From: Cymbidium sinense
Lineage: Eukaryota; Streptophyta; Magnoliopsida; Asparagales; Orchidaceae
Length of the DNA stretch: 64,000 nucleotides
Assembly: GCA_021442155.1 (NCBI GenBank)
Contig: CM038214.1
Location: 27,528,450 to 27,592,449, forward strand
Direction: 5' to 3'
Below are positions 1 through 40,181 of this stretch, piece after piece (the stretch's first letter is position 1; the number at the start of each line of letters is the position of its first letter). The notes under the pieces were generated by a model. It did not search any database, was not told the DNA's origin, and was given only the letters and a program-made list of their open reading frames with translations. The position numbers and the translations under genes were made by a program.

Positions 1-649
1 TTTTAGGTTTAGGTTTAGGTTTTTATTTTAGGTTTTTATTTTAGGTTTATTTTATTTTAGGTTTAGGTTTTTTAGTTTATTTTATTTTATTTATTTTAGG
101 TTTAGGTTTAGGTTTTTATTTATTTTAGCTTAATTTATTTTAGTTTAGGTTTAGTTTTATTTTATTATTATTTTAGGTTTAGGTTTTTTTTAGTTTAGGG
201 TTTAGGTTTTATTTTATATTTATTTTTAGGTTTATTTTTTATGTTTAGATTTTTATTTTGTTTTTATTTTATTTTATTTTTATTTTAGGTTTCATTTTTA
301 TTTGATTTAGGTTTTTTATTTTTAGTTTAGTTCAAGTTTTTATTTATTTTATTTTAGTTTAGTTTTTATTTTTTATTTTATTTTCTTTATGTTTAGGTTT
401 TAGTTTATGTTTTATTTTATTTTGATTTAGGTTTTAATTTATTTATTTTTAGGTTTTATTTAGTTTATTTAGGTTTTAGCTTTTTTTGGTTTAGTTTGTT
501 TTTTTAGTTTAGGGTTTGTTTGTGGTTTATGGTTTAGGTTTATTTTAGATTTAGGTTTATCCTTGGGTTTTACTATTTAGGGTTTATGGTTTAGGGTTTA
601 TGTTTTGGGTTTAGAGTTCAGTTTTAGTTTAGGGTTTAAGGTTTATAAT
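1..649 (+). repeat. Degenerate telomere-like array 1
   Basis: The plus strand is built from TTTAGG, TTTAGGG and G-poor TTTTA/TTTATTTTA words with almost no C. Towards 500-640 the seven-base plant telomere word becomes commoner. It is not a perfect telomere; unit length drifts constantly. The G-strand runs left to right, so a telomere in this polarity would lie to the right, not at the start of the window. No gene is visible. Confidence 0.85.
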
Positions 650-910
650 AAAAAACAAATTCAAATTCAACATTTCTTCTTTTCAATTTCATTAACAAAG
701 TAACCCACTAAATTTTCTAAGACATAAGTGACGACATAGATCAAAATAGAGAACACATAGAGCAAATCAAAAACCCTAGATAACTAGAACCGTCTCTATT
801 GTAAAGGCATAGTTCCATAAGTAGCAGATCGGATTGGCATCCTTTAGTTTCTTTAGTTCCCATCAGAACCACCCTGGCCTCTCTAGTAGTAGGATCCACC
901 ATCATATCTT

Positions 911-950
<40 letters not shown>

Positions 951-1112
951 ACCACCACAGGTGTAACCTCCATCCACTGCATCCAAAACCTCCACTACTC
1001 CCGACCACCCCTATATCCATTAGCACCTCTAGAGCCCCACAACACTATGATAACCTCCACTCCACCTCCACCCCATATAGCCCGGTTGGTGATGTTCCTA
1101 GCTACCCATTCT
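650..1112 (-). pseudogene. Glycine-rich RNA-binding protein 3' end, module copy 1
   Basis: Read on the minus strand, this is a remnant of the last coding part plus 3' UTR of a glycine-rich RNA-binding protein (RRM followed by a Gly/Tyr/Arg-rich tail). The same block recurs at 2,318, 10,492, 15,687, 28,752 and, truncated, at 40,121. The 3' UTR signature is strongly conserved: on the plus strand it reads CAACATTTCTTC, then TTTCAATTTCAT, then AAGTAACACACCAAGTTTT in the consensus. This copy carries a TC microsatellite inside the Gly-rich part. Frames are broken and no RRM core is present, so it cannot encode the protein. The family assignment rests mainly on the better-preserved copy at 28,752-29,197. 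Confidence 0.6.
913..947. repeat. (TC)n microsatellite
   Basis: An uninterrupted TC/GA dinucleotide run of about 35 bp inside module copy 1. The other module copies lack it, so it expanded after the copies separated. Confidence 0.97.
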
Positions 1113-2317
1113 TAGGTTTAGGTTTTTATTAGGTTTTAGGGTTTATATTTATTTTTTAATTTATTTAATTACTTTAGGTTTAGGTTTAGGGTTTGGGGTT
1201 TAGGGTTAGGTTTTAGGGTTTAGGGTTTATGATTTTAGGGTTTATGGTTCAGGGTTAGGGATTAGGGTTTAGGGTTTAAGGGTTTTTAGGTTTTAGGGTT
1301 TAGGGTTTGTTTATTTAGGGGTTTAAATATTTTTTTTAAATTAAGTGGTCGGTTTAGTTTTATTTAGTCTATTTTTTATTTCTTTTAGGTTTATTAATTT
1401 TAGTTTAGTTTTTTTTTAATTTTTTTTAGGTTTAGGTTTAGGTTTAGGTTTTTTTTTTAGGTAAGATTTATTTTTGGTTTATATTTTAGCTTCAGGTTTT
1501 ATTTTTTTATTTTTAGGTTTAGGTTTTATTTTTTATTTTATTTTTTTAGGTTTTATTTTGGTTTATTTTAGGTTTTATTTTCAATTTAGGTTTAGGTTTA
1601 TTTTAGTTTTATTTTATTTAGTTTAGGTTTAGGTTTAGGTTTAGTTTATTTTAGGTTTAGCTTTAGGTTTTATTTGAGTTTATTTTTTTGTTTAGGTTTA
1701 GGTTTATTTTATTTTATTTTAGGTTTAGGTTTTATTTTAGGGTTTAGGTTTCAATTTTTTTTTTTATAGGTTTTATATTTAGTTTTATTTTAGGTTTGGG
1801 TTTTATTTAGTTTTTATTATATTTTATTTTAGGTTTATTTTATTTTTTTATTTTACATTTAGTTTTATTTTTTTAGATTTATTTATTTTTAGTTTAGTTT
1901 AGGTTTTATTCTATTTTTTGATTTAATTATATATTTATGTTTAGGTTTTTTATTTTATTTATTTATTTTATTTTATTTAGGTTTTATTATTTATTTTATT
2001 TTAGGTTTTATTTAATTTAGGTTTGAGTTTTAAGTTTTAAGATTTTGGGTTTATGGTTTTTTTTTAGGGTTTAGGGTTTAGGGTTTAGGGTTTAGGCTTT
2101 AGGGTTTAGGGTTTATGGTTTAAGGTTTATGGTTAGCTTAGGGTTTAATGTTAGTTTAGGGTTTAGGATGGTTTAAGTTTAGGGTTTTTAGGTTTGGTTG
2201 GGGTTTTAGGGTTTAGGGTTTATGGATAAGTTAGGGTTGGGTTTATGGTTTAGGGTTTAGAGTTTAGGTTTAGGGTTAGTGTTTGGTTTAAGATTTAGGG
2301 TTTAGTTTTTTATTTTT
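1113..2317 (+). repeat. Degenerate telomere-like array 2
   Basis: G/T-rich plus strand. 1,170-1,320 and 2,040-2,300 are rich in TTTAGGG. The middle, 1,380-2,030, is G-poor TTTTATTTTA-type DNA. No coding sequence is seen. Confidence 0.85.
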
Positions 2318-2750
2318 AACAGAGAAAAATTCAGATTCAACATTTCTTCTTTCAATTTCATCAACCAAGTAACACACCAAGTTTTGTAAGACACAGGTGA
2401 GGACATAGATAAAAAATGAGCATGCATAGAGGAAACTAAAAGCCCTTGATAACTAGAGCCATCCCTATTGTAAAGATACAGATCCAGAAGTAGTAGAATG
2501 GATCGGTCGTTCATCAATTTCTCTAGTTCCCCGAACCACCCCCCGCTTCGAGTAGCGATCCATGATCATATGCCGATCTCTCGCCACACCACCATGGTTG
2601 TAACCTTCATCATCTCTTGCCTCCATAACCACCACTGCTCACCATCACCTCCATATCCACTAACCCATAGATCCCCACCACCGCGATAATCACGCCTCCA
2701 ACTCGCCATCAAGACTAAGCTTAGTTGATGATGATGTTCCTACGTCCATT
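2318..2750 (-). pseudogene. Glycine-rich RNA-binding protein 3' end, module copy 2
   Basis: Second copy of the minus-strand module. The conserved 3' UTR part lies at about 2,320-2,450 and the degraded Gly-rich tail at 2,480-2,690. The 3' side is preceded on the plus strand by a T-rich tract (about 2,305-2,317). The high-coordinate side ends at the same module boundary as the other copies, at a CCATTC word, and telomere-like DNA follows directly. Stops and frame changes make it non-functional. Confidence 0.6.
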
Positions 2751-5700
2751 CCATTTTATTAGGGTTTAGGTTTTATTTTTTTAATTTATATAGTTACTTT
2801 AGGTTTAAGGGTTTATTAGTTAGGGGGTTTAGGTTTAGATTTAGGTTTGGTTTTTTATGCTTTAGTGTCGGTTTTTAGGTTTTTAGGATTTAGGTTTTTT
2901 AATTTTGAGATAGGTTTATGTTTATTTAGTATATTTAGTTAATTTTTATTTATTTTAGTTTATTTATTTTTTTATTTATTTATTTTAGTTTAATTTATTT
3001 TAGGTTTATTTATTTTATTTTATTAGGTTTAGGTTTATTTTTTTAGTTGAGTATTATTTTATTTTATATTTTAGGTTTATTTTATTTTTATTTTTTGTTT
3101 AAGTTTTTTACTTTATTTTTAGGTTTAGATTTTAGGTTTTATTTTAGGTTTTATTTTAGTTTAGTTTAGGTAATTTTAAGTTTATTTTATTTTATTTAGT
3201 TTAGTTTAGGTTTAGGTTTAGCTTATTTTAGGTTTTATTTATTTTAGTTTAGGCTTTATTTCATTTTGTTTATTTTATTTTTATTTTAAGTTTTTTTTTA
3301 TTTTGTTTATTTTTATTTATTTTATTTATTTTTAGGTTTTATTTTTAGGTTTATTTTATTTTGTTTATTTTTTTTTAGGTTTTGGTTTTTTAGTTTAGGT
3401 TTAGTTTAGGTTTATTATTTAGGTTTTATTTATTTTATTTGCTTTTTATTTTATTTTATTTATTTTATTTTATTTTAGATTTAAGTATTTTTTTTGTTTG
3501 GGGCTTAGTTTTTTTTTAATTTATTTTTAGGTTTATTTTATTTTGTTTATTTTACTTTTAAGTCAGGTTTAGGTTTTTTTTTAGTTTAGGGTTTAGGTTT
3601 TATTTTTTATTTATTTTTATATTTTATTTTAAGGTTTATTTTTTTTAGGTTTTATTTAGTTTTATTTTAATTTATTTTAGGTTTATTTTATTTTATTTTA
3701 TTTAGGTTTTATTCTTAGGTTTATTTTATTTTTAGTTTAGTTTAGGTTTTTATTTATAGTATTCTTTTTTTATTTTAATTTTAGTTTAGTTTTTTTTATT
3801 TTATTTTATTTTATTTTAGGTTTAGGTTTATTTATTTATTTTAGGTTTATTTTAGTTTTTAGGTGTAGAATTCATGATTTAGGTTTAGGATTTGTGGCCT
3901 AGGGTGGGTCAGGGTTTAGTGGTAGGTAGGGTTTAGGGTTTGAGCCTGGGTGGCTCAGTAGAGTAGGGCCTCAGGTTAGTTTAGGGTTAGGGTTTAGGGT
4001 TTAGGGCCTGAGATTTAGGGCCTGGTCAGGGTTTAGAGTTGAGGATTTTGGCCTGGGTTTAGGGTTTAATGTTATACAACCCAGTCAAAGCCTGGGAGGT
4101 CAGTGGTAGTTGGTGGGGTAGGTTTTAGGGTAGGGTTTAGGGAGAGGTTTAGGATTTTTTTTTTAAAAAGCAAGTGTAATTTTATAATTTAGTTTTATTT
4201 TTATTTTTAATTTTAATTTATTTTATTTTATTTATATTTATTTTAGATTTTAATTTTAGTTTATTTTTAGGTTTAGGTCAGGTTTAAGTTCATTTTTTTT
4301 AGTTGAGTTTTTTTTATTTTATTTTTAGGTTTAGGTTTTATTTTTTATTTTAGGTTTAAGTTTAGTTTTCATTTTATTTTTTTAGTTTAACATATGTTTT
4401 TTATTTTAGTTTATTTTAGGTTTTATTTTTAGTTTAGGTTTAGGTTTACTTTTAGTTTATTTATTTTATTTAATTTAGGTTTAGGTTTAGTTTATTTTAG
4501 GTTTTATTTATTTTTAGTTTACTTTATTTTAAGTTTAGGTTTAAGTTTATTTCATTTTGTTTATTTTATTTTATGTTAGGTTTAAGTTTTATTTATTTTA
4601 TGTTTTATTTTTAGGTTTATTTTTCAGGTTTAGGTTTTTATTTAGTTTTCATTCTAAGTTTATTTTATTTTTATTTTGTTGAGTTTTGTTTTATTTAGGT
4701 TTTTATTCTTAGGTTTATTTTATTTTAGTTTAGTTTAGGCTTTTATTTTATTTTAGTTTATTTTATTTTATTTTATTTTATGTTTAGATTTTAGATAAGG
4801 TTTTTTTATTTTATTTATTTTATTTTTATTCTTAGGTTTAGGTTTTTTATTTAATTTATTTTAGGTTTTATTTAGTTTATGTTTAGGTTTTAAGTTTTAG
4901 GATTATGGGTTTAGATCCGTGGTTTAGGTTTGTTTTAGGGTTGGGTTTATGGTCTAGGTAGGGTTTTAGGGTAGTTAGTAGTATTTTGGGTTTGTGGGTT
5001 TAGGTTTACTCATTTTAGGTTAGGTTTTTATTTTTATTTTTTTTAAATTAGTAAGAAGTTTAGGTTTATTTTGTTATTTTTTTATTTATTTTAGTTTTTT
5101 TTTTTTTTTTATTTTATTTAGGTTTATTTTTTTATTTTATTTTATTTTATTTTATTTTATTTTATTTATTTTATTTTTATTTAGGTTTAGTTTTTATTTT
5201 CTTTTTTAGGTTTTATTTTGTTATTTAGGTTTTTTTTATTTAATTTTAGTTTTATATTTTTTATTTTATTTTTTGTTTTTTTATATTTTTATTTTATCAA
5301 TTTATTTTATTTTGTTTTTGATTATTTATTTATTTACATTTATTTAGTTTAGGTTTAGCCTTTTTAGGCCTAGTTTAGGCTTAGGCCTGTTTTAGGTTTT
5401 GAATGAGGGTTTAGGGTCAGGTTTAGTTTAGTTTAAGGCTCAGTTTAGTCAGGATCAGTGGTTTAGTGAGCCCAGGGCCTGGTAGGGCCCAGGTGTTTTA
5501 GGTAGGTAAGGGTTTAGGGCCCAGAGTGGTTTAGGGTGGCATGGGTTGTGGTTTAGTTTGGCTCAGTAGTAGTGAGTTAGAGTGGTTTATTTCATGGTTA
5601 TTTTTTTATTTGTATTTAGGATCCATGTAGTGTAGGAGTTTGGGTTGGTGGGGTGGGGTTTAGGAGGTGTGAGTTTAGAGTTTTTTTAAAATCAAACCCG

Positions 5701-6563
5701 GTAGGTTTTATGTTTATTAAATATTTAATTTATTTTATTTATTTTGTTTATTTTATTTTATTTTATAGGAATATTTTTTTATTTTATTTAGTTTAGTTTA
5801 TTTATTTTAAGTTTATTTATTTTCTTTAAGTTTTATTTTAGTTTATTTTAGGTTTAGGTTTAGGTTTATATTTATGTAGTTTAGTTTTATTTTATTTTAT
5901 TTTATGTTTTATTTTTATTTTTTTAGGTTTAGGTTTTGGTTTTATTTTATTTTTTTAGGTTAAGGTTTAGGTTTTATTTTAGGTTTATTTTAGGTTTTAT
6001 TTTTTTAGTTTAGGTTTATTTTGGTTTATTTTATTTTATTTTAGTTTAGGGTTTAGTTTTTGATTTAGGTTTAGGTTTTATTTATTTTAGTTTAGTTTAT
6101 TTTAATTTAGTCTTAGGTTTATTTATTTTGTTTATTTTAAGTTTAGTTTTTTTAGTTTATGGTTTAGCTTTTTTTATTTATTTTTAGGTTTTATTTTTTT
6201 GTTTATTTTTTAGGTTTAGGTTTTTATTTAGTTTTTATTTTATTTATGTTTATTTTATTTTTATTTGTCATTTAGTTTTTATTTTATTTAGGTTTTTTAT
6301 TTTTAGGGTTATTTTATTTTTTTAGTTTAGTTTAGATTTTTATTTATATTATTTTAGTTTAATATTGATTTTTTATATTTATTTATAGGTTTATGTTTAG
6401 GTTTAGGTTTTAGTTTAGGTTTTATTTTATTTTATTTTTTATTTTATTTAGCTTTTGGTTTTATTTATTTATTTTGGTTTTAGGTTTTATTTAGTTTAGA
6501 TTTAGGTTTTTAAGTTTTTGGATTTAAGTTTAGGGTTTAGGGTTGTAGGTTTTAGGGTTTAGG
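2751..6563 (+). repeat. Degenerate telomere-like array 3 (3.8 kb) with G/C-richer islands
   Basis: Mostly G-poor TTTTA/TTTATTTTA words with scattered TTTAGG. Three islands differ: about 3,870-4,150, 4,895-5,000 and 5,350-5,700. They carry TAGGG words mixed with CAG, GGCC and GTGG motifs, and C appears where the rest of the array has almost none. The array ends in TTTAGG plus a 10-T run at 6,564, the 3' junction of LINE A. No gene is seen. Confidence 0.85.
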
Positions 6564-6573
6564 TTTTTTTTTT

Positions 6574-7917
6574 AAAACTAAAAAGAATTTATTGCTCAGG
6601 AAGAAAAAAAAAGAAACAAGAGTCCTTATTAGAGACTAAACTCAAAAAGAAAAAAAACTACTGCTCAAATGAGCTATAGGAGAATCTTAAGGAGTTTAGT
6701 CCCTAAACTAATACATTAAAGAGTAATAAAGAAAAAAAATAAGGAAAAAAGAGAAAAAGCTGAGCAAAAGGCAAAAAAGGGGAAGAATCCACGGAGCTCC
6801 AAAAGAACCTCCAAAGAGACGAAGAACCAAAGGAAAATTAAACCTGCAACTGTAGACAACTCTAGCCATCTAAGAAAGAGGAGACCATCAATAAGACACC
6901 AACTCCCTCCAAGAAGAGGAAGAGACCAACTGAAAATGAGAATCAACAACCTGTAAGAAATCTTAGCTAGAAGGAGATAAAAAAACATTAAGAGAAAAAA
7001 CTCAGGCTCAGATATGAGGAAAGAAGGATAATCACAATAATGAGGGGCATCAAATCCTAAGTGTATCCAGCTTCAAAGATGGGTTACAAATAGGAAAAGT
7101 CACCAACCATAAAATTATCAAAGGAAAAAAAATCATCATATCATCATAGCCATCCTATCCAAAGAAAAATACAAACCTATCATAATTGCCACCCAACCAA
7201 AGAAAAAGTGGAGCTAAGGAAACAAAAAGAGAGAGTAAAGCAACATAAAAAATTAACATAAGGCATTCCCAACAAAACCAAATATGAACACCTCTTAAAA
7301 AGTGGGAGAAAAAAAACTAACATCCTAAAAAAAAATGAGCCCTCAAAGATAAAGCCAGAGCCCACAATAACACCAATCCAAAGCCACCAAGGCACCAACC
7401 AAAGGAAAGGAAATAGCCAATAGAGTAGCCACACAACAGAACACCCAAGAAAAATAGCCCAGGAAAGAGCAAGAAAGAAAACCAACCAATAGAAAAAAGA
7501 AGGCCAGTAATAGCTAAAATAAAAAGCTAGAGAAATAGCCAACCAAGGGACAAACCACACCCCAAGGACAAAAAGCCCAACCTACTACCATCAAAGAGAG
7601 CAAAAGCACCAAACAAAGAGAGGCAAGCCAACATGAATGAAGCCACTACCACAGAAAATAGAGAAAAGAAGAAACAAACCTGCCAAAGGGCACCAAAAAA
7701 TCCCAGTGAACATGAAGCCAAAAATACCAAGCAAGAAGAAGAAAAATTAGCCAAGAAGCCAATACTCCAGCTAGCAAGAAAACACATAGAAAAAACTCAA
7801 CCAACATAGATAAAACTAGCCATAAGCAAACACCTCCCAAAGATAAGAGATATTATTTCCAAGAAGCTTTATAATGAGTAACCCTCGACAAGTGAGGAGG
7901 GGCATAAATCAGAACAC
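6574..7917 (-). other. LINE A 3' region, sense strand rich in GGTTGG-type motifs
   Basis: The plus strand is rich in CCAACCAA, CCAAAG and CAAGAAG words, so the sense strand is rich in TTGGTTGG and TTGG. The long minus-strand open frames here are Trp/Leu/Phe-rich low-complexity translations and are not credible proteins. Similar regions lie downstream of ORF1 or ORF2 in LINEs B, C and D, so this belongs to the family's 3' UTR. Confidence 0.65.
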
Positions 7918-9680
7918 TTTTTTCCTTTTTCTTCTTGTAAATAGTTTTATAACCATTACTTTTCTCCAAAAAATCTCCAAGAAAAAATGAATCAGTGTTG
8001 TTATAAAAGGCATGGGGATCAGCAGAAAGCTATCAAATTCAAAGAAGAGCATTCAGAAACATCCACAACATTAGATAAAGGAAAATAAAAAATAGTATGC
8101 ATTTCAGAATTAGAAGTGAATAAAGGAGCCTAAAGAGCATTATTAAGAAGGAAATTATTAAAATTTTCACCTTCCAACAAAATCTGAAGAGTATCCTCCC
8201 TGTCTTCATTTGTAAAAGAATCAAGAGAAGCAAAATCCAGATTTTCAGTACAAACTTCATGTAAGGGATTAAAATAAGATTCCAATCCCTTAGAAACACA
8301 TAGCATATTACAAAAATTTTGAATAGAATTACCAGCGGTAGAAAAGCCATCATTTTGAACCGAAATAGAACTATTAATAATGAGAGAATTGTCACGTATC
8401 TAAATCTTATTTTTAAAAGAAGGATCACCAATATTAAAAAAGATTATCGGACCAAAAGTTAAAATATTAGAAATAAGAACAATCTTTTCACCGCAATTCT
8501 CAATCAAAGAAGGAAAATAAATATTCTCTTTCCCATGATCTAAAGCATACATAAGAGAATGAGAAACAATATCTAATTGATTGGAAGAAATGGTGTTAGC
8601 ATCAATAATATTCTAACCATCATCATGAAAGGACTTATGCACAACATCCAAACCAATAGAATCATTAACCACAACCTCCAAAGTCTTCCCTTAACAGAAT
8701 CATCAAAAGAAACACTTAGAGCATGATTATTAATTAAAACTTTTTCAAAAACATCAAAATTACCTTGTGCATTAGAAAAATGATTAATAGGTAAAAATTT
8801 TTTCAGAAGATTTAGAAATATGGTTTTGCAAAATATTAGAATTTTGAAAATTAGAGTTCTCTTTATCCAACTTGAGAGAATCATTAGTTTTTTCAACAAT
8901 CAAATTCTTACTGGTGATTTTCTTCCTAAGAGGGGGATATGCAACAAAACATTCAGAAATTTCATGCCCATGAATCTTACAATGATTACAAAAATTGGGA
9001 AAGTTCTCAAAAATAACTTTTTGAAAATAACCGCAATTCTGCGAACCTAACCAAATTTCTTTTGGATATTTTTTAGTAATATCAATCTCTACAAAAATTC
9101 TAGCAACATACAGTCTAGAAAAAGTAGCTGTTGCTTGATAAACTTGCAAAGGCCGACCAAAATTTGACCCAATAGCATAAAGAATATGATTAAATAGATG
9201 AATGGTAAGTTAAGAAAAGAAATCCAAATGGGAATAATAAGAGACTCTTCATTAACATTAAACATACCCACTTTAATACACATTTGACATTTAAAAATAT
9301 AGTAAGAATGCCTACAAAAAATTCTTCCGTAAATAAGATCATTAGAAAGTTTAATCAAAACATGCCTCACATCAATCAACCTAATAGAAAAAGAACCAGA
9401 TAAATTTAAGCTGTGAAAAAAAAGAAAGAATGTCTTCCATATTAAGCTATTTGAAGGAAAACTTTCCAATCAAAGAAAAAATAAAAGGCTCAGCTAATCT
9501 TTCAATATCAGCATCTGAAATCATAATCATCGGAGTACCTTTAAACATCATATGAACCAAATTTAGAGGAGGCTTGGTGGAAGAGTTCTTACTAGCTAAA
9601 GCATCTTTGAAAGATTTAGTAAAGAAATTTAATCTAGAGGTATTACCCAAAACTCGATGCCCTAGCAAATCCATCACCAT
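7918..9680 (-). pseudogene. LINE A ORF1 (DUF4283 and CCHC zinc knuckle), frameshifted
   Basis: ORF1 of plant L1 elements encodes an RNA-binding protein that packages element RNA. The minus strand shows the DUF4283 lead-in (SFKDALASKN; ERLAEPFIFSLIGKF) at about 9,450-9,620. The middle of the domain (GSFSIRLIDVRHVLIKL; PIWISFLNLP) is in another frame at 9,200-9,400. The end (ARIFVEIDITKKYPKEIWLG) lies at about 9,045-9,100. A perfect CX2CX4HX4C knuckle (CNHCKIHGHEISEC) is at 8,949-8,990. A long, poorly conserved C-terminal part runs down to about 7,920. At least two frameshifts (near 9,450 and 9,160) and later stops break it. Confidence 0.8.
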
Positions 9681-9862
9681 GGGATTTACCCCATGGATTG
9701 GAAGAAGTCAATGCCATGAGTCACGGTGCCGCGACCAAAATATGTCAATATCATCAAAGTTGGGAACCCAAGAGAAAAAAAAATGTTCAAACACTAACCA
9801 AGAAGCCATGGGATATGAGGAATCCAAAAGAAGTTTTAGTAAAAGGGGGGTTTCCAAGTTTT

Positions 9863-10491
9863 TTTAGTTTTCTATTTAATTTTAGTTTATTAGTTTTAGT
9901 TTTTTAATTTTTTTTAATTTTAAATTTTTTATCTTTTTAGTTTTTTAATTTTTTAATTATTTTATTTTATTTTATTTTTTTATTTATTTTATTTCATTTT
10001 TTAGGGTTTAGGGTTTAGGGTTTAGGTTTTAGAGTTATTTTATTTTACTTTAGGATTTGTTTTATTTTATTTAGGCTTTTATTTTATAGTTTAGTTTTTT
10101 ATTTATTTTATTTTATTTTAGTTTTTTTAGTTTAGTTTAGTTTAGGTTTAAGTTTAGGTTTTAGTTTATGTTCTTATTTTATTTTATTATTTTATTTTAA
10201 TTTAGTTTTAGGTTTTATTTATTTTATTTTAGGTTTTATTTAGTTTATTAGGTTTTAGCTCTTTTTAGGATTTAGTTGGGTTTAAGGTTTATGGTTTAAG
10301 GTTTAGGTTTTTGGGTTTATGGTTTGGCATTTAGGGTTTAAGGTTTAGGGTTTAGGGTTTAGGTATTAGGGTTTAGAATTTCGGGTTTAGGGTTTTAGGG
10401 TTTTTATAGTTTAGGGTTTAGGGTTTAGGGTTTATGTTTTAGGTATAGGGTTTAGGTTTTAGTTTATGGTTTAGAGTTTTTGGTTATTTTT
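9863..10491 (+). repeat. Degenerate telomere-like array 4
   Basis: T-rich DNA with TTTTATTTTA words (9,863-10,250), then denser TTTAGGG words at about 10,260-10,480, just before module copy 3. No gene is seen. Confidence 0.85.
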
Positions 10492-10938
10492 TAATAGAGA
10501 ACAAATTCAAATTCAACATTTCTTCTTTTCAATTTCATCAACCAAGTAACACACCAAGTTTTATAAGAGACACGTGACAACATAGATAATAAATGAGCAC
10601 ACATAGAGCAAATCAAAAACCCTAGATAACTAGAACCATATCCAATTTAAAGAGTTCCATAAGTCAGATCGCCCATTCTTCTATTTCTTCTGTTCCCATC
10701 AAAACCACCCTGGCCTCTTGAGTAGCAGGATCCACCATCATATCCCCGATATCTCCCTCTGCCACCACCACAGTTGTAACCTCACACCTCCTACTTCCAT
10801 AACCACCATTATTGACCACCACCTCCATATCCACCAACACCTCCTGATCCCCACCACCATTGTGATAATCGCCTCCACCTTCGCCGACCACCGATCTACT
10901 AAGCCGGTTGACGGATTTTCTATAGTTTTGTTTCATTC
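10492..10938 (-). pseudogene. Glycine-rich RNA-binding protein 3' end, module copy 3
   Basis: On the minus strand a Gly-rich frame is readable at about 10,690-10,860: GGYGGGG, then after two stops NCGGGRGRYRGYDGG and SRGQGGFDGNRRN. This matches the Gly/Tyr/Arg tail of plant glycine-rich RNA-binding proteins. The conserved 3' UTR block follows at 10,495-10,640. The copy lacks the RRM and has in-frame stops. Confidence 0.65.
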
Positions 10939-11640
10939 TGGGTTTAGGTTTATGTTGAGGTTTATTAGGTTTTTTTAGGTTTTATTTTTTTTTATTTGTA
11001 AGTTTATTTTAGGTTTAAGTTTTATTGTTATTATTTTATTTTATTTTCAGTTTATTTTAGGTTTATTTTATTTTATTTTACATTTAGTTTTTATTTTTTA
11101 AGTTTTTATACTTAAGTTTATTTAATTTTTTTTATTTTAGTTTAGTTTTATTTATTTTATTTTATTTTTAATTAGTTTATTTTATTTTAATTTTAGGTTT
11201 ATGTTTAGGTTTAAGTTTAGGTTTTATTTTATTTTATAGTATTTTATATTTAGGTTTGGTTTTATTTATTAATTTTTATTTTAAGATATTTAGCTAGTCA
11301 GTCCTGGATTTTAGTAGGGTTTAGAGTTTAGGTAGAAGGGTGGCTGGAGAGCCCAGGTCAGGCTTTAGGCTCAGCATAGGGTTTGATTTAGGTCATGGCA
11401 GAGAAGTGGCCTGGTGGTAAGGTAGTTTTGTGGTATGGTATGGTTGGAGGGTTAGGGTGGTAGAGGGAGGGTTAGAGCCAGGCCAGGATTTAGGGAGGGT
11501 CAGGGTGTGGGAGTGTAGTCAGTGGTTTAGGTCAAGTTTTGGTTAAGGGTGGGTTTGGGTTAGGATTAAGATTTAGTTTTATGGTTTAAGATTTAAGGTG
11601 GAATAGTTTAAGGTAGGGTCAGGATTATTTTAGGGTTTTG
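10939..11640 (+). repeat. Degenerate telomere-like array 5 with a G/C-richer island
   Basis: 10,939-11,285 is G-poor TTTTATTTTA-type DNA. 11,290-11,640 is an island mixing TTTAGGG words with GGTCAGG, GGTGG and CCAGG motifs, like those at 3.9-4.1 kb and 5.4-5.7 kb. It runs into the 3' end of LINE B without a clean T-run. Confidence 0.8.
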
Positions 11641-13125: not shown

Positions 13126-13134
13126 CAAAACCAC

Positions 13135-29197: not shown

Positions 29198-31093
29198 TAG
29201 GGTTTATGTTTATTAGGTTTTAGAGTATAGTTTTATTTTATAATTTATTTAGTTACTTTAGGTTTAAGTTTAGGGTTCGAGATTTAGGGTTAGCATTTAG
29301 GCTTTAGGCTTTAGGCTTTAATGTTTAGGGTTTCAGGTTTTATGCCTTTAGGGTATTAGGGTTTAAGGTTAGGGTTTAGGGTTTTAGGGTTTAGGGTTTA
29401 GGGTTAGGTTTTAGGGTTTATGGTTTAAGGTTTAGTGCTTAGGTTTTAGGGTTTAAGGTTTAGGGTTTATGATTTAGGGTGAGCTTAAGGTTTAGAATTA
29501 GTTTAGGGTTTAGGGTTTAAGCTTTAGGGTTTTTTAAGGTTTAGGGTTTAGGGTTTAGGGTTATGATTTAGGGTTTAAGGTAGGGTAGTGGTTTTAGGGT
29601 TGGGGTTGTTGTTGTTTTTCAGTTTTTGGTTTAGGGTTGTTTAGGTTTATGATTTTAATTAAGCAAACCCATAAGTTTAGTTTATTTAGTTTATTTATTT
29701 TATTTATTTATTTTAGTTTATTTTATTTTTATTTTTATTTAGGTTTATTTTATTTTATTTAGTTTAGTTTTATTTATTTTAGGTTTTATTTTCATTTGGT
29801 TTTATTTTAGTTTATTTTTTAGGTTTAGTTTAGGTTTATGTTTATTTATTTTTATTTTATTTTATTTTATTTTAGGTTTTATTTTTAGGTTTAGGTTTAG
29901 GTTTTATTTCATTTTTAGGTTTAGGTTTTAGGTTTATTTTAGGTTTATAGTTTAGGTTTAGGTTTATTCTAAGTTTATTTTATTTTATTTAGTTTAGGGT
30001 TTAGGTTTTAGTTTTAGGTTTTAGGTTTAGGTTTTATTTATTTTCATTTAGTTTATTTTAGTTTAGGTTTTTATTTTATTTTATGTATTTTATTTATTTT
30101 ATTTATTTTTTTTTAGTTTAGGTTTTTTTTAAATTTTTAGGTTTATTTTAGGTTTAGGTTTTAATTAGTTTATTTTATTTTATTTTAGGTTTATTTTCTT
30201 TTATTTTATGTTTAGTTTTATTTTATTTAGATTTTATTCTTGACTTTTATTTTTTAGTTTAGTTTAGGTTTTTTTTTATTTTTTTTATTTTTTTTAGGTT
30301 TAGGTTTAGGTTTTAGTTTTGGTTTTTATTTATTTTATTTTATTATTTTATTTAGGTTTAGGTTTCTTTATTTATTTCATTTTTAGGTTTTATTTAGCTT
30401 AGGTTTATGTTTTTGAGGTTTATAATTATTTTATGATTTTTAGTTTTAAGTTTAGGGTTTAGGGTTTTAATGTTTAGAGTTTAGAGTTTTGGATTGTTGG
30501 TTCAGGGTTCAGCGCGTAGGGTTAGGGTTTTTTTTTAAATTTTTTTAATGTTTCTATCCTTTTTAAATTAAGTAAACTGGTACGTTTAGGTTTATTTAGT
30601 TTATTTAGTTTGTTTTCTATTTATTTTAGTTTATTATATTTTTTAATTTTGTTTTATTTAGTTCAGTTTATTTATTTTAGTTTAGGTTTTTTATTTTAGT
30701 TTATTTTAGGTTCAACATACAGGTTTATTTTTAGTTTAGTTTAATTTTTATTTTATTTTTTAGGTTTAGGTTTTATTTTTTTATTTTTAGGTTTATGTTT
30801 AGGTTTTTATTTTTTTTTAAGGTTTAGGTTTTAGGTTTTTATTTTATGTTTATTTTTAGGTTTTTTTTTTTAGTTTAGGTTTAGTCATTATTAGTTATTT
30901 TATTTTATTTGGGTAGTTTAGTTATTTTATTTTAGGTTTAGGTTTTTTATTTATTTTAGTTTAGTTTATTTTAATTTAGGTTTAGGTTTATTTTATTTTT
31001 ATTTTAGGTTTAGATTTTATTTTTTTTAGTTTAGGTTTTATATTTTATTTATTTTTAGGTTTATTTTTTAGGTTTAAGTTTTTATTTAGTTTA
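29198..31093 (+). repeat. Degenerate telomere-like array 9
   Basis: 29,260-29,660 is TTTAGGG-rich. From about 29,660 to 31,093 it is mainly G-poor TTTTATTTTA DNA, with a TTTAGGG patch at 30,440-30,530. It runs directly into the RTE element's 3' end. No gene is seen. Confidence 0.85.
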
Positions 31094-32820
31094 AGTGGAA
31101 CTTTTCTATCACACAACAGGACAAATGCATTCCTCCACTTCAACGATCCAACTTGAATTCTACTAATAACATCTCCATCTATTTCACCATCATTTTGAAC
31201 AATAGAGCCTAAATATTTGAATCATTCTCTTATTAATAACTTGTTCACCTAATTTCCAACACTACCATAAGAACTTCTACAACTAAAATTACACTCCATA
31301 TATTTAGTTTTAGATCTACTTAAATGAAAACCTTTAGACTCTAATATTGACCTCCATAATTCAAGTTTCTCTTGGACTTCTCTAGTCTTATCAACAAGAA
31401 GAATGTCAAAGAAAAGCATACACCAAGGTACATCTTTATAAATGCTTAGTAAGAACATCCATAACTAAAGAAAGCAAAGATAAGGGCTTAAAGCGATCCT
31501 TGATGTAATCCAATTGAAATGGAAAATATTTTGTCAATCCTCCTTGTGTTTGGACAAAAGTAATGCTCTAGTATACATATCCTTAATGACTTGAATATAA
31601 CCAATATTAACTCATTTCTATTCTAGAACTCTCCAAAGAACATCTCTTGAAACTTTATCATAAGCTTTCTCTAAATCAATAAATATCATATGTAAATCCT
31701 CCTTACTTTCTCTATACTTCTCCATCAAACCTCTTAAAAAATGTATAGCATCCATAGTAGATCTACCTGGCATGAAACCAAACTGATTGTGAGAAACTTT
31801 TGTATCACATTGTAACCTATGCTGAATTACTCTCTCCCATAATTTTAATGTATGACACATTAACTTAATTCCTCTATAATTTGCACACTCTTGTGCATCA
31901 CCTTTATTCTTAAATATAGGAACCAACAAACTCTTTCTCCACTCATCTGGCATCTTTTTATTCTTTAAAATAATATTATAAAGATTTGTAAGCCAAGAAA
32001 TTCCATGATCTCCTAAACATTTCCGCACTTCTATTGGAATATCATCAAGTCCTACTACTTTTCCACATTTCATTTTCTTTAAAGCTTCTCTAACTTCATA
32101 TTTACTAATACGATTACAAAAATAAAATTTCTATTTTTTTTTAGGGTATTAAGGTTGCTAAAATCAATTGTACATTCAGATCCTTCATTGAAAAGTTTAT
32201 CAAAATATCTCATCCACCTATTTTCAATATCCTTTTCTAAGAAAAGTACTTTATTATCTTCATCCTTAATACACCTCACTTGAACTAGGTCTTTACTTTT
32301 CCTATCTCTTTGATTGGCTAACTTATACATACATCTTTCACCTTCTTTGGTATCTAATCTATTGTATAAATCACTAAAAGCTAAATTTTTTGCATCATAT
32401 ATTTCTTTCTTAGAATCTCTATAGGCCACTTTATAACTTTCCCAATTCTCCAAGTTTTTATATCTAAACCAAGTTTTATAACAATTCTTCTCATTTCTTA
32501 TCTTTTCTTGTACACTCTGACTCCACCACCTACTATTTTTATTAAAAGAAGCTTTTCCTTTCGATTCTCCAAGCACATTTTTAGCAACTTTCTTAATTTC
32601 ACTTGCTACTTTTTCTCACATAACATTAGCTTCTTTATGAACATCCCAAATTCTAAGCTCTTGTAGTTTGATCTTAAAAATATTTTTATTTGTGTTATTT
32701 AAGTATCCATATCTAATCCTAGGACAATAATTTAATTTATTTTTCCTCTTCCAATCTTTCATCTTAAAATTTAAAACTAACAATCGATGTTGGGTACTTA
32801 AACATTCACTTGAAAAAACT
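31094..32820 (-). mobile_element. RTE-type LINE, 5'-truncated
   Basis: A non-LTR retrotransposon of the plant RTE clade, different from the L1 copies around it. It contains the end of the endonuclease domain, the linker and most of the reverse transcriptase. It lacks the front of the endonuclease, so it is 5' truncated at about 32,820, where LINE D's 3' region begins. The 3' side joins telomere-like DNA near 31,094 without a clear poly(A); RTE elements often end in short tandem repeats instead. Orientation is the same as all other inserts to the left of the gap. Confidence 0.85.
31249..32812 (-). pseudogene. RTE ORF (endonuclease end, reverse transcriptase), broken
   Basis: On the minus strand, TQHRLLVLNFKMKDWKRKNK near 32,730-32,795 is the endonuclease C-terminus. 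The linker runs about 32,080-32,576 (ASFNKNSRWWSQSVQEKI). The reverse transcriptase core follows at 31,618-32,073: [72 protein letters not shown] and motif [14 protein letters not shown]. The catalytic FADD box is damaged, reading MLFFDILLVDKT near 31,390-31,420. ESKGFHLSRSKTKYMEC follows near 31,290-31,345. Stops and frameshifts separate the pieces. Confidence 0.88.
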
Positions 32821-34063
32821 AAGACCAAAAAGAAAAAACACAGGAGTTCATGTCTTCCACAATCAAACAAGAAAGGCAGCAAGGCTGTCACCCAAACTAG
32901 AAAAAGGGAAGTAGTAGCAGCCAAGAGAAGGAACCATAGGAAGAGCAGGCCAACCAACATGACACCAATGAAGTAGGAAAGAAAGGCCAAAATAGCCACC
33001 CATCCAACCAACCAAGCCATCCAAAATAACCAGCCAACCCAGCTAACCAACATAGCCGGCCAGCCAACCACCACAGCAGTAGAAAATCCAAATCAATGAA
33101 AAGACCAACAACATCCATCATGCCAAAACTACCTAAGACAACCAGGAAAATGGTAGAAGTAAACATCAGCATCCACCAAACCCAACCAAAGCATCAAAAA
33201 TTCTAATCTAGGTGAGGTGAATATCCAGCCAAAAACAAAATGGAGCAAAGACTAGTAAGACAGACTAAAAGCCATCCATCAGGAGCAACAACAATACAAT
33301 AAGAACACCACCAAAGCCAACTGCAAAAAGGAAGAGAAATATCAATGAGTGCAAGCATCATAACCATAGCCAAGTTAGGCACCAATACACCAAACCAAGT
33401 CACCAGATCCCAAAGCAAAACAACAAACTACCAAGCATCAACCATCCAACCCAAAATAATAACAAAACAAAGCTATAACCAAGAGAGGAAGACCATTATA
33501 AGAAGAGGTTGAAACCACAACCAAAAGAAATAAACCCAAACTAGCAAAACTGACAACCAAAACCCAATCCACAAAAAAGAAGAAATAATAATTAATAAAT
33601 AACCTCCACCTTATGAAATACAATCCAAAATTAAGCCACCCCGATCTGCCACCAACTGAAGTGGATAAACTAGCCAACAAAGCTAGCCAGCCAACAACCA
33701 ACAACCAACACAGCCAGCCCACCCAGCCAACTGCCATCGCAGCAAAAAAATTCAACTCAATGAAGCAACTAGCCTGTGGATATGGCAAACCCCATATAAA
33801 AAAATAGTAGCCACCACCCAAATGAAGGTCACAAAATAACCAAGCTGCAAACAATAGGGATGAAAAAAAAACCAAACACTGGAAGAAAAGATAAGAACAA
33901 CTAGGTAGCAACGACCAAGCCAACCCTAAAGCAAGAGCTCAAAACAAAACCAAACCCAAAGAGTGAAAATAAGCAAATGGCCACAACCTAAAGAGTATTT
34001 AACAAAAGGGAACCAAAAGCAATGGTTCATAAAAAACCAACAGAAAAAACCAAGCCAAGAAAA
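32821..34063 (-). other. LINE D 3' region, GGTTGG-rich on the sense strand
   Basis: The plus strand is packed with CCAACCAACC, CCAGCCAAC and CCACCAAAG words. 32,960-33,080 and 33,680-33,740 are the densest parts. The sense RNA would carry many GG pairs separated by two or three bases. Long open frames on both strands are low-complexity and not credible proteins. Confidence 0.6.
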
Positions 34064-37000
34064 TTATAATCTCAGATAAGGTAATCTAGTGTTATCCTGA
34101 TTGACCAAACCCCTTAAAAGTTTAGGCAAATTTTGATTGTCAAATAAAGTGAAATTAGTTAAGTTGGCACCTAAAGTAGCCAAGAAATCAGCACAAGCAT
34201 TACCTTCATGAAGGATATGGGAAATTTTATAACGAACTTGAGAAGAAAGATTTTTAGTATGATTGAGAAGATAAAATAAATCAGCATTTCCTATTATATT
34301 AGAGTTTAGCATGTCAAGAAGCAAGAGTGCATCAACTTCAATCTAGATGTTGAGGAAACCTTTATTCAAATAAATTTCAATAGCTTTATTGATAGCCATA
34401 GACTCAACATAAATAACAAAATGGGCTTTGAGAGGATAGGCAAAAGAACAAATGATAGTACCTTTAGAATACCTAAGAATACCACCACAGCCATATTTAT
34501 TGGAAGCAATAGACTCATCAGTATTCACTTTAATCAAATTTTCTTTGGGTTTGATCCAATGGATAATCCTAACACTTTTATAAGAGTCAACATCACGCAG
34601 AATGATACCTAATTTTTTATCCATAAATTTATAGCCTCTAAAATGAATGTTCCTAATAAGATTAGCATTAAACAAAGCATGAATTTTTTCTTTGGTTATA
34701 GCTAAGATCATTTTATGGATCATAGGAATACCATGATATTTATCATCATTTCTGTACATCCAAATGAACCAGATAAGGGTAATAGCAACTAGAACTTTGA
34801 TATGACCTTTCATAGTTTTTTTGAAACAGACTTCAAGAAGTTGATATATGGAAAGAGAGCCATGAAAGAAGTTGGTATTAAATAAATTATCATACCATAA
34901 CCATAATTTAGAAGCAATAGCACCATTGACAAAAACATGAATAAAATTTTCAATATGGAAGTAACAATAGCACTTTGAAGGCAAATAAGACCCTTTATTC
35001 TAGAGCAAAGAGTCCACAGGAACAAAGTTATTCAAAAACCTCCAAGCTAAAACCAAATAAGAAATGGGAATAATATTGTTCCAAAGTTTATTGAAAACAT
35101 TAGAGGAGTTTTGCTTATCTCTAATAAAATTCCAAACCTCTTTAAGAACAAAATCATCATTATAAGAAAGCTTAAAGAGAATTTGGGTTTGTTAGAGAAA
35201 ATAAGGATATTTCTAAAGTTATCTAAAAGAGAAATATGGATATATTCTCAAGTTTGTTTTCATTCCAAGTGTTATTATAGAAAGAGTTTACTTTGATAGG
35301 TAGAGTTGGTAGATAAAAGGGAGTCAATAAAGCCATTGCCAATCCAATTGTCTTGCCAAATGAAAGAAGAACCTGAATGAATACCCCAAGATTTTAAGGG
35401 TTCAGCAACCCATTTAATGGAGTAAAGCCTTTTCCAAACTGGAGAGTCACCAACTTTATAAGCACAAATAAGAGAGTGTTTACCTTGGCAATATTTTTTT
35501 ATCATAAAATTAGCCCAAAGGCTATCATTCTTTTTAAAATTCCACCAGAGCTTAAGAGAGAAGGTAGTCATAGCTTCACAAATCAGTTTGCAACTGAGAC
35601 CATCTTCACCCAAGGGACCAAAATTTATGCCAGGAAGTCCAATGCATTCTTTATATAGAATTATTGGATCCCCAAAAATATTTATTAAGCAAGAGATCAA
35701 TTCTGATAAGAGTAGCATTAGTGGGGATAATAATTTGAATCAAATACAGATGCATTGAATTGAGAGTGCTTTTAAGAATAGTGAGCCTGCCACCAAAGGA
35801 AAATAAATGATATTCTCAAACATAAATTTTATTTAAAATTTATTGAATTAACTCATCAAAAGGATGGGATCATTTCAGAGCTTTAAAAAGAGGTGCACCA
35901 AAGTACTTAAGAGGAAGGTGTTGATGTTTAAAGTTAGTGATATGCAAGATTTGATTAATTTCATTATTGGAGATGCTTAAAGAAGTAATAAAATAGCTTT
36001 TGTTATCATTGATAGATAGACCACTTTCTCTACCAAATTTATTTAAAAAAATCTTGAGATTCTTGATATGATTAATAGAAGCATTGTAGAAAATAATGAA
36101 ATCATATGCAAAACTTAAATGAGAAAAAGGAAGACCACTAAGAGTTTTGTAATACATACTAGGATTGTTTAAGAATAGATCATTGATGCTCCTAGATAAG
36201 TACTCAACAATAATAATAAATAAGGCAGAAGATAGAAAATCCCCTTGTCTTAGGCCATGGGAAGAAGGAAAGAAGCCTAAGGCTTCCCCCATTAAGCAAA
36301 ATAGAAAACAAGGCATTATTAATACACATTTTAATAAGAAAGGTAAATTTATTAGAAAATAAATTCAATATGGATAAGGAAATCCCAAGAGATATTATCA
36401 AAAGCTTTGGTAATTTCTAATTTGAATATAATGTTGCCACCTCTAGTCTTAGCATCTAAATCATGAATTAATTCTTGAGCAAGCAGAATATTATCAAAAA
36501 TAGATTACCTCTAACAAAATAAGTTTGGCTTAGAGAGATAATCCCATGAAGTAAAGGACTAAGACTGTTGGTTAAAATTTTGAAAATAAGGTTATTGAAA
36601 AAGGTGCAAAGACTAACAGTTCTAAAATCACTCCAATAGTCTAGATTATCTTTCTTAGGTATGAGAATAATTGAAGTGCTAGAAAAATATCTAGGAAAAG
36701 GATTACCATTAAAAAAATCAAACATAGCCTCAACCAAAACATTTTTAATAATAAACCAGCATTTTTGAAAAAATTGGGTAGTGAAACGACCAACAATAGA
36801 ATCTATGTTCATGCTATTAAGAACTTTAAAATTTACTCTTTATTATGTACAATAGTAAGCAACTCATTGTCATTATTGTTTATAATAGAAGGAATCAAGT
36901 GTGATTTAGAAATAGCTTCATAAGACCAACTCTTATTAAGCATATTTATAAAGTAATTAATGGTCGAATCCTTATTATGATTATTCTCCATAATCCATTC

Positions 37001-38130
37001 TCCATTGTTATCATTAATTTTTTGAATATTATTTAAAGATCTCTTTTTATTAACTAAAGCATGGAAATATCTAGTATTTCTGTCACCATCCATAATATAT
37101 TTGCTAGCAGGTTTTGGTGGCAATAAGACTCTTCCATATATTAAAAATTAACAAGTTTATCTTTTGCCTCAGTCAAGTCCTTAATCTTAGTAGGACCGCA
37201 TAATGAGACTTCAAGATCATAAATCGATTTTTTTCCATTTCTTTGATATTAACAAAAAGGCTTTTAAAATAATGCTTGTTCCACCAACCTAGATTTTGTT
37301 TAAGTCTTTTAAGCTTAAACCAAAATCTATTCATCCCCATAATCAAATTGTTAGGATGTAAGGGAGCTTTCCAATTATTAGCCACAATATTAAAGAAATC
37401 AATATGCTTAATCCACATGTTCTGAAATCTAAAATGAAAGAAATTTTTTAATCTATTAGAGTTATCTTTAATAGAAACCAAAAAAGGTGCATGATCCGAT
37501 AAAATTCTGCTTAAATGATCGATAAAAGTAATAGGCCATTGAGTAATCCATTGAGTATTAAAAAGAATATGGTCCAACATTTGCCAAATTCTTGAGTTTT
37601 GCCAAGTAAAATTTGAACCCTTAAAGCCAATATCAATCAAATTGCAACCAAGGATCATATTGGAAAATTCTTCCATGGAATGAATATTAGGAGAGCAACC
37701 ACCTCTTCATTCAAAAGAGAATAAAATAGTGTTGAAATCCCCACCAACAAACTAAGGTTTATTGACAGAGGTAGCAAAATTCCTCAAACTTTTCAAAAGA
37801 ATATTTCTACCAGATCTATTACAAGATGAATAGACAAAAGAGCCCAAAACACAATAGTCACCATAAGATATTTTAGTGTTGACAACTTGTTGAAAATCAT
37901 CAAGAATAGAAACCTCCACAAAATTATTCCAAAAACACCAAATTTTATTACTAATATTAGAGAAAATTTTATTGAAATCGATAATTCTAGCAATATGGTT
38001 AATGTTGTTTGCATGAATAAGAGGCTCCAAAATAATAAGTAAAGAAATATTATGAATATGATAAAGGTTTTTAATACGGTTACAAATAGAGAGGGTATCA
38101 ATCCCTCTAACATTCCAAACAAGCAAAATA
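34064..38130 (-). pseudogene. LINE D ORF2 (endonuclease, reverse transcriptase, RNase H), broken
   Basis: Endonuclease: LVWNVRGIDT at about 38,120, IILEPLI near 38,030, VGGDFN near 37,720 and SDHAPFLV near 37,495, so the main catalytic motifs survive. Reverse transcriptase: SIILIPKKDN near 36,660. Motif A reads FKLEITKAFD with Glu for the catalytic Asp (codon 36,415-36,417). LRQGDFLSSALF is near 36,240, and FAYDF replaces FADD near 36,095. The RNase H at about 34,130-34,545 keeps Asp (NTDES), Glu (YVESMAINKA), Asp (IEVDALL) and Asp (NACADFLATLG). One TAG, where the family usually has Trp, splits the RNase H between GFLNI and IEVD. Several frame changes lie upstream. It cannot be active. Confidence 0.9.
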
Positions 38131-38239
38131 AAACATAAGGAAGTAAAAGAGGTGTTAAGAAAAGGTTAATTAAGAGAGGAGTGGGAGGCCGCAGTAGATC
38201 TAGTGTTATTGTACCATTTGGGAGGGATGTTTTTAATAA

Positions 38240-39600
38240 TTTTTTTTTTAGCATGATAAGTTTGGGAACCATTTCTTTTTTCCCATAGAATCATCATCCG
38301 AGAAGGACTTAGCAATATTAGTCATAGATTTAGGGAAGTCTCTTATATAGAAGTGAGTTCTCCTTCTTACAAGCCATTAGAATTTATTAAAGTTAAATCA
38401 ATATCGGGTATAAAAGTGGAGCAAATAGATTTATTAAGAAGGCAAGTGTGAACATCCAGCCCTTCTTCTTCAATAGTCAGATTATTAGACAACCAAATAT
38501 GTTTGAGAATTTAAATCATTAACTAAAGTATAGTTTTTTCAAACTTGAGAAACCAAATCATATTATCCATTGAATTCAAATGATTCATAACATTGATATC
38601 CTCATTAATATTTTCAATTAATGCTTCATTTTCATCAAAAAAAAAAATGGTAAGGATACGGGGATCGACTTAGAGAAAAAAAGAATTATCATCCAAAAGT
38701 TTAGAGATATTATTATTTTTCACATTAGAAACCTTCAATTGCACAAAAGAAATAAGAGGTAAAACAACCTTATTAGGAACATTCAATGAATCCTTTTTTT
38801 AATTAACTTTTTGATATTTATCAATGGTCGGCCTAGGGTTAGGAACAATAGTTTCCTTAATAGGAATTTCCTTTTTTAAGGTGAGGATGCAGAATGAAAC
38901 ATTCATAATTATTATGCTCGTGGATTTTACAATGAGAACAAAAGAGAGGGAAATTTTGAAAATCAACTTTATGCATATAACCATAATTTTTAGATCCCAA
39001 CCAAATTTCTTTGGGATGTTTCTTGGTAATGTCTAATTCTACAAGGATTCTAGCCATATAAGATCAAGATTTCATAGCCATTGCATGATCAATTTGCAAT
39101 GGCTGACCAAATAAAGCACCCACAAGAAAAAAGAATTGATGATTAATGAAATGAATTTGCATATTGGGAGAGAAATCCAAACTAAAATGATTGGGGATTC
39201 TTCCCTAATATCAAATAGTGGAGTCCATTTCAGTAACCTCATTTGGCAATTGAAAACAAAATAAGAATGATGAGCAAAACCATGCGAGTAATCCAAATCA
39301 TTCATTAACAATCAAATCAAAATGTGGGGATTAATTAAACTAATCTTAAAAGCACCTGAAAGTTTCAGACCATGATAGAAAGAGTGAATGTTTTCTAAAT
39401 TCTATCTATGAAGAGTAAACTTTCGACCAAAGTAAATTCTAATGGATTAGCAAGCTTTTCCACAATCGATCGAAACATAACCAGACATGCCTAAAAAAGT
39501 CAAAATAAGTTAGAGGGACACACTTGAACAACTATCCTTACCAATGAGGACATCTTTAAATGATTTTGATGCAACCTAAGCCAAGGTAGTTGATGCCCTA
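38240..39600 (-). pseudogene. LINE D ORF1 (DUF4283 and CCHC zinc knuckle), broken
   Basis: The minus strand shows SKSFKDVLIGKD near 39,540-39,580, then DUF4283 pieces in several frames, e.g. HVLI-type and PIILVWISLPI sequence at 39,090-39,300. ARILVELDITKKHPKEIWLG follows at about 38,995-39,054. A perfect CX2CX4HX4C zinc knuckle (CSHCKIHEHNNYEC) is at 38,899-38,940. The variable C-terminal part runs to about 38,240, shortly before ORF2. Frameshifts and stops interrupt it. Role by family: nucleic-acid binding protein of the retrotransposition particle. Confidence 0.8.
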
Positions 39601-39828
39601 GTTAGATCCAATGGATCTATCGATTTCCCCCATGGAATCATTAGGGAAGATGCCAAGCAATGGTGTCACTCAAGTAAAACACAAAGCAGCTAGGAGCCAT
39701 CGATTCCAAAAGGAATCCAATGAGAATCATGCCAAACAACTATCAAGCAGTGGCTAGAAAGCCAATAATGAGAGGGAAAAAGGGGAATCGCCAGAGCATT
39801 AGGTTAAGGGCTTGGGCTACAATTGGGT

Positions 39829-40120
39829 TTAGGTTTAGGTTTTTATTCCTTTTAGTTTAGTTAATTTTTTATTTTGAAGTTTATTTTAGGTTTATTTTAT
39901 TTTAGGTTTAGGGTTTAGGGTTTGGAGTTTATGGTTTAGGGTTTAGGGTTTAGGGTTTAGGTTTTAGGTTTAGGGTTTAGGTTTTAGCATTTTAGGGTTT
40001 AGGGTTTAGGGTTTAGGGTTTAGGGTTTTTAAGGTTTAGGTTTAGGGTTTAGGGTTTTTAGGTTTTAGGTTTAGGGTTCAAATTTTAGTTTAGGGTTTAG
40101 AGTTTATGTTTTTTTTTGTT
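39829..40120 (+). repeat. Degenerate telomere-like array 10
   Basis: Rich in near-perfect TTTAGGG units at 39,900-40,100, one of the cleanest stretches in the window. It ends in a T-rich tract before module copy 6. Confidence 0.88.
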
Positions 40121-40181
40121 TTAACAGAGAACAAATTTAGATTCAACATTTCTTCTTTTTGATTTCATCAACCAAGTAACA
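40121..40181 (-). pseudogene. Module copy 6, truncated to the 3' UTR end
   Basis: Only about 60 bp of the module's 3' UTR remain: AACAGAGAACAAATTTAG, then CAACATTTCTTC and CAACCAAGTAACA. The match to the other copies stops abruptly at about 40,181 and unrelated DNA follows. This is a clean breakpoint between the telomere-like mosaic and the giant inverted repeat. Confidence 0.8.

Follow-up and report, generated by a model that had tools for sequence, protein, structure and literature searches.

One-way insertions of an L1 retrotransposon in an interstitial telomere-like satellite of Cymbidium sinense

The 64,000-bp stretch of the Cymbidium sinense genome analyzed here (the window; positions 27,528,450-27,592,449 of contig CM038214.1, hereafter C1) raises the question of why sequences of retrotransposed origin should all face the same way within telomere-like DNA. 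Positions 1-40,186 of the window consist of telomere-like DNA with its G-rich strand (G-strand) on plus, broken up by non-array inserts, and four copies of L1-type long interspersed nuclear elements (LINEs; copies A to D), one RTE-type LINE and six modules derived from a glycine-rich RNA-binding protein (GRP) gene all lie antisense to this G-strand. The initial annotation described a single polarity for eleven inserts and offered two explanations, namely the priming of reverse transcription by a G-strand 3′ end with later addition of telomeric repeats, and the nicking by a LINE endonuclease of T/A sites confined to the T-rich strand. Its observation that every array has the G-strand on plus was borne out in the 14,040 bases of array blocks, taken from a block list drawn by the authors within the window, to which the array statistics refer: the plus strand carried 153 copies of TTTAGGG (shuffled mean 4.2) and 511 of TTTAGG, the minus strand none of either, and the base composition was 60% T, 19% A, 19% G and 2% C.

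Taken alone, five window inserts would give p = 0.06 (two-sided). Genome-wide, the polarity was assessed by counts of the 17-mer TTTTTTGGGGAAACCCC from the 3′ end of copy C (L1-C type), which was found 201 times (109 + 92). The word CCTAAA was present within 30 bases upstream of the L1-C 3′ end in 0 of the 201 cases, so that the opposite-orientation copies that the initial annotation had named as speaking against its view were not encountered for this type. The word TTTAGG gave 150 + 79 matches in the same interval; as the plus-strand matches count overlapping starts, distinct ends were used instead, and TTTAGG stood upstream of 70 of the 85 distinct ends among the matches listed, and, counting every minus-strand match as a single site in line with the matches listed, of 79 of the 92 ends on that strand. 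Within that same set, the word accompanied 37 of 38 minus-strand and 33 of 47 plus-strand ends. Moreover, six L1 segments adjoining arrays in three sampled stretches (L010, L012 and L013) all showed the window polarity; LINE B matches in L011 and L018 (58-59% identity, opposite to the array, in A/T-rich array) were left out as composition matches; an RTE piece of L027, which scored opposite beside a 293-bp T-rich block not telomere-like by eye, was also dropped. The single orientation is genuine, and for one L1 type it extends over the whole genome.

The arrays themselves are a composite satellite and not a telomere. The window is interstitial, placed 27.5 Mb inside a contig of 376.8 Mb (in an assembly of 3.526 Gb and 2,174 contigs), and at the transitions from TTTAGGG-rich to TTTATTTTAGG-rich blocks stands a junction word (TTTAAATTAAGTAAACC-like) that is not telomeric. 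A hidden Markov model (HMM) built from three window copies of this word (16276, 29651 and 30559) revealed others at 1335, 14738 and 28316 (E 0.0013 or better) and at 17345 (E 0.026), besides 34 more with E of at most 0.01, spread over 12 of 44 other loci and every one on the G-strand; a scan for the junction word tolerating 5 errors was uninformative. The pattern (TTTAGGG)3 was found genome-wide 186,744 times in forward and 206,468 times in reverse orientation (about 393,000), the reversed pattern 0 times. More than 800 bases of array were present in 7 of 20 arbitrary 10-kb stretches, and about 12% of these 200 kb was classed as array (G-strand on plus in 8.0 kb and on minus in 16.2 kb), a share that includes scattered 60-base windows, possibly noise, making up about 1% of the sample in the 13 stretches without clear array. 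Therefore, the arrays constitute a dispersed interstitial repeat, whose abundance and dispersal merit separate study.

It is very probable that L1s were repeatedly inserted by target-primed reverse transcription into this pre-existing interstitial satellite, and that a GRP retrocopy was then amplified with it. The degenerate telomere-like satellite would already have been interstitial before the arrival of the L1s, and the presumed nicking enzyme, the L1 endonuclease, would cut at putative T-rich/A sites found virtually always on the G-strand. The 3′ T end thus freed on the G-strand would prime on the poly(A) tail, and the resulting copy would lie antisense to the G-strand with its poly(T) adjoining telomere-like words. 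One 5′-truncated, short-tailed mRNA copy made likewise, then amplified and spread with the satellite, would have given rise to the GRP modules.

TTTTA is taken here as the core of an L1-type cut, and its distribution agrees with the nicking explanation of the initial annotation: it was present 857 times on plus and 3 times on minus in the window arrays, compared with 87 and 82 times outside the arrays (23.8 kb of the window). The longer TTTTAA, given as the mammalian L1 site in one study (PMC8091179), occurred 83 and 3 times inside and 34 and 23 times outside the arrays. In four other array-dense 10-kb loci, the G-strand carried 454-632 TTTTA sites and the other strand 3-11. The one-way insertion of L1s is most likely due to nearly all TTTTA sites lying on the T-rich G-strand, as an enzyme nicking there could scarcely place a copy in the opposite direction. 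These sites also provide a baseline for location, with a TTTTA density of 61 per kb in the arrays versus 7 per kb in those 23.8 kb of the window that lie outside them. At a 12% array share, about 54% of TTTTA sites were calculated to fall in arrays, or about 26% with TTTTAA. When the presence of TTTAGG no more than 30 bases from the 3′ end was taken as a proxy for array location, 82-86% of the L1-C ends lay in arrays versus the 54% expected. Much of the L1 concentration in arrays needs no special targeting, and the excess makes some extra preference for arrays possible. A land-plant L1 lineage specialized on the telomere-like satellite, acting as a counterpart of TRAS/SART in an interstitial reservoir, with a host GRP mRNA captured by the same route and amplified, is conceivable and can be proposed only tentatively.

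Insertion into a pre-existing satellite is well supported. The T-runs at the 70 listed L1-C-type ends were 6-19 bases long, six being required by the search pattern, and GG preceded the run in 41 of them, the rest being mixed. In the window, the joins of LINE A (TTTAGG followed by 10 T) and LINE C (TTAGGG followed by 13 T) were as originally described, LINE B had only TTTT and the RTE no T-run. In 20 plus-strand L1-C sites that were fetched (1.5 kb each), the left flank was telomere-like in all, as expected from their selection, and the array resumed past the 5′ end in five, so that satellite stood on both readable flanks. The junction word was placed 156-423 bp past the LINE 5′ end in L034, L043, L048 and the window copies B and C, a word that belongs to the satellite and not to fresh telomere. 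In L043, TTTATTTAATTTAGGTTTT was present on both sides of the LINE, with A following on the far side, forming a 19/19 direct repeat ending in TTTT; in both L034 and L043, the direct repeat outscored every one of the 19 mismatched flanks. In addition, no 20-mer before the T-run was common to any two of the 20 fetched sites, the truncation points of five short copies were all different, and the 3′ ends of 21 L1-C copies (first 400 bases) were 65-98% identical (median 84.5%).

Several observations weigh against this mechanism. The polarity is solid for the L1-C type only, because the genome-wide counts cover that single 3′ end, and the endonuclease match of copy D is weak (E 0.033, below Pfam's cut-off). 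GG before the T-run (41/70) fell short of the 77% (519/678) found at TTT/A sites of the window arrays (p 0.001), and thus some cuts may have occurred elsewhere or flanks may have changed. The far flank was not reached in 15 of the 20 fetched sites, and the junction word was not found in the fetched flanks of L038 and L045. As for the target-site duplications that the initial annotation suggested looking for, two of five sites stood above all controls, and those of L038, L045 and L048 did not beat mismatched flanks; local alignment gave no signal for them at the four window inserts tested (4/4), and a permutation of eight flank pairs, in which the row for window copy A was unreliable as its left flank included bases beyond the T-run, resulted in p = 0.15.

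Endonuclease-independent priming, in which broken internal G-strand 3′ ends in the T-rich satellite anneal to poly(A) tails, could account for the direct repeats that are absent or unclear at three of the five short inserts, and the polarity would be the same if such a break supplied the free 3′ end. It is nonetheless unlikely, considering the L043 direct repeat and the excess of GG before the T-run over the 25% expected for random breaks (p 3e-9), although annealing could also favor T ends. Nicking is favored over such break priming, not proved.

A far less probable course is that a chromosome G-strand 3′ end primed reverse transcription, that telomerase added repeats later and that the block was internalized afterwards. 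The HeT-A, TART and TAHRE elements of Drosophila have a polarity relative to the chromosome 3′ end and are located at chromosome ends; priming of that kind predicts the polarity observed here, and the direct joins of TTTAGG or TTTAGGG to T-runs in the window, as well as the AGG or AGGG directly abutting the T-run in 34 of the 70 listed ends, are compatible with it. The likeness ends with polarity, since L1-C ends beside TTTAGG occurred, among the matches listed, all along C1 (from 0.35 to 375 Mb of its 376.8 Mb) and into C2, deep inside chromosome-scale contigs, and since older target is present beyond the inserts, with the array resuming past the 5′ end in 5/20 fetched sites. The abundance of arrays in 20 arbitrary stretches, the non-telomeric junction word in the distal flank in five cases and the identical local array word on both sides of L043 also speak against the addition of new telomeric repeats, and this part of the initial annotation is not supported. 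Polarity beside TTTAGGG should not be taken as a sign of terminal priming. Finally, the origin of the entire mosaic, LINEs included, by duplication of one insertion, which the initial annotation had itself named as a threat to its view and which fits the GRP modules, has a negligible probability and is refuted for the L1s examined, given that window copies A to D are diverged (their pieces match one another on minus, with aligned ORF1 pieces 38-67% identical) and that joins and truncation points differ at the sampled L1-C sites.

A single 5′-truncated retrocopy amplified with the satellite is the most likely source of the six GRP modules, which the initial annotation had suspected might be duplicates; accordingly, the eleven inserts share one strand without representing eleven events, since the modules recur genome-wide in an unchanged polarity and, for the most part, with identical ends. 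A 26-residue piece had the glycine-rich RNA-binding protein 4c7q as its best match (E 0.0013), and the window modules were pairwise 79-92% identical. The 20 sampled stretches contained 14 further module matches, 12 of them array-associated and all with the GRP sense opposite to the G-strand, the remaining two being an inverted 93-bp piece (L011) and a 45-bp match outside arrays (L015). Similarly, three of the four array-dense loci gave nine more modules, 9/9 with the window polarity, and the fourth (L029) gave none. As judged by eye, the 5′ edge still shows CCATTC or CCAATTC, encoding NGQ..., in 10 of 14 listed copies, and a T-run at least six bases long closes the 3′ edge in 11. This shared truncation point and tail suggest one retrocopy amplified later, and the module would thus have a single origin, with an L1 as its probable maker. 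In a satellite register test, the in-register alignment outscored each of 14 shifted ones for the left flank in 58 and for the right flank in 22 of the 78 pairs, a result that is partly an effect of block composition and was not used as proof. The inverted piece of L011, at positions 1-93 of that stretch and at an array edge, may be a sign of occasional inversion inside the satellite.

Table 1. Coordinates of arrays, inserts and neighboring features in the window (~, approximate)
Feature	Positions	Strand	Detail
Composite telomere-like array with M1 and M2	1-6567	+	TTTAGGG-rich alternating with TTTATTTTAGG-rich blocks
GRP module M1	647-1113	-	3′ part of glycine-rich RNA-binding protein gene
Junction word	1335-1375	+	G-block to T-block transition; HMM, E 7e-4
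GRP module M2	2318-2767	-	
L1 copy A	6568-9860 (~)	-	ORF1 with DUF4283 and CCHC-like motif; T10 join at 3′ end
Array with M3	9862-11640	+	
GRP module M3	10493-10930	-	
L1 copy B	11641-14519 (~)	-	ORF1 similarity only
Array with M4	14520-19243	+	Junction words 14738, 16276, 17345
GRP module M4	15689-16153	-	
L1 copy C	19245-28160 (~)	-	Similar to D in ORF1 and ORF2; T13 join at 3′ end
Array with M5	28160-31087	+	Junction words 28316, 29651, 30559
GRP module M5	28755-29205	-	
RTE-type LINE fragment	31088-~32815	-	Reverse transcriptase domain, PF00078 at 1e-14
L1 copy D	32816-39825 (~)	-	Reverse transcriptase (PF00078, 2e-11) and ORF1; CCHC-like motif; DUF4283 below cut-off
Final array block, with M6	39826-40186	+	
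GRP module M6	40123-40186	-	Truncated; cut at about 40,186
Region with diverged inverted arms	40187-55107	.	Arm pairs aligned between 40347-45905 and 47598-55100

The LINE copies show the features of plant L1s, ORF1 and ORF2 with reverse transcriptase and a poly(A) 3′ end, in the form of the reverse transcriptase of copy D, the similarity of the open reading frames (ORFs) of C and D, and the T-runs at L1-C-type ends; L1s with DUF4283 are typical of plants. The reverse transcriptase piece of copy D matched LINE-1 ORF2 structures, and none of the 46 candidates from a protein search with it reached E 0.001. The ORF1 region is retained in copies A and B, which did not match the ORF2 pieces of either C or D; it is possible, judging from these matches, that they are ORF1-only non-autonomous L1s. 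The RTE label was taken from the initial annotation and stands for a presumed clade. A match at positions 6378-8070 of L027 (1,727-bp alignment, 90% identical) covers nearly the whole window RTE, which suggests that a common truncated or short RTE form may exist.

Beyond the arrays, the inverted-arm region of about 15 kb, whose aligned pairs have 59-70% identity, begins at the cut of module M6 and may represent one inserted element with the putative limits of Table 1; the remainder of M6 is out of sight because the right side of this region reaches an assembly gap (55108-55207). A tRNA gene match lies on plus at 58857-58930 (Rfam RF00005, 56.7 bits), and an inverted pair at 59350-60865 and 62486-64000, of 87% identity and running to the window end, is possibly formed by the ends of one element or by an inverted duplication.

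The set of one-way insertions described here, with 70 distinct ends of one L1 type among the matches listed, is a large natural one and offers a direct test of how far strand-biased cutting sites alone determine where a retrotransposon inserts and which way it faces. The composite satellite that holds them is telomere-like, includes a module derived from a gene and makes up about 12% of the sampled sequence. The novel element is a plant-type L1 concentrated in an interstitial telomere-like satellite. A literature search, made mostly without subscription papers and only partly covering its sources, found no land-plant L1 in telomere-like arrays, which is weak evidence of novelty, and the initial statement that no plant example is established has to be softened by two cases. 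The first is Zepp of Chlorella, which is named among the elements residing in telomeric repeats, here in a green plant lineage (PMC10088271), and is telomeric, unlike the L1s of this satellite; Zepp or Zepp-like clusters were also reported in the centromeres of other green algae (PMC11005252). Outside plants, the nearest known cases are TRAS and SART, from Bombyx and relatives, non-LTR (long terminal repeat) elements inside telomeric repeats with a fixed polarity per family, the two facing opposite ways; the poly(A) of SART, which reportedly does not operate at the extreme terminus, joins TTAGG repeats (PMC7265360); they are also called R1 families of true telomeres (PMC10088271). The fixed-polarity insertion is shared, here in telomere-like, interstitial repeats and for one L1 3′ end, whereas the elements studied here are of L1 type, to judge from reverse transcriptase and ORF1 matches, and occupy an interstitial satellite in one direction. 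Telomere-like DNA inside chromosomes is likewise described for the interstitial telomeric-like repeats of seed plants (PMC8621592), unlike which the present arrays belong to a composite satellite that includes a module of genic origin. The second and nearest plant case is that of the L1-CS LINEs of Cuscuta europaea, found repeatedly in the satellite CUS-TR24, frequently in reverse orientation and at sites likened to TTTTAA, with probably several master copies and 91% of the lineage associated with CUS-TR24 (PMC8091179). As in L1-CS, plant L1s have here entered a satellite repeatedly and most copies reside in it (70/85 listed ends and 79/92 on the minus strand, by the TTTAGG proxy), whereas CUS-TR24 is not described as telomere-like and offers two defined monomer sites, in contrast to the dispersed T-rich sites of the Cymbidium satellite.

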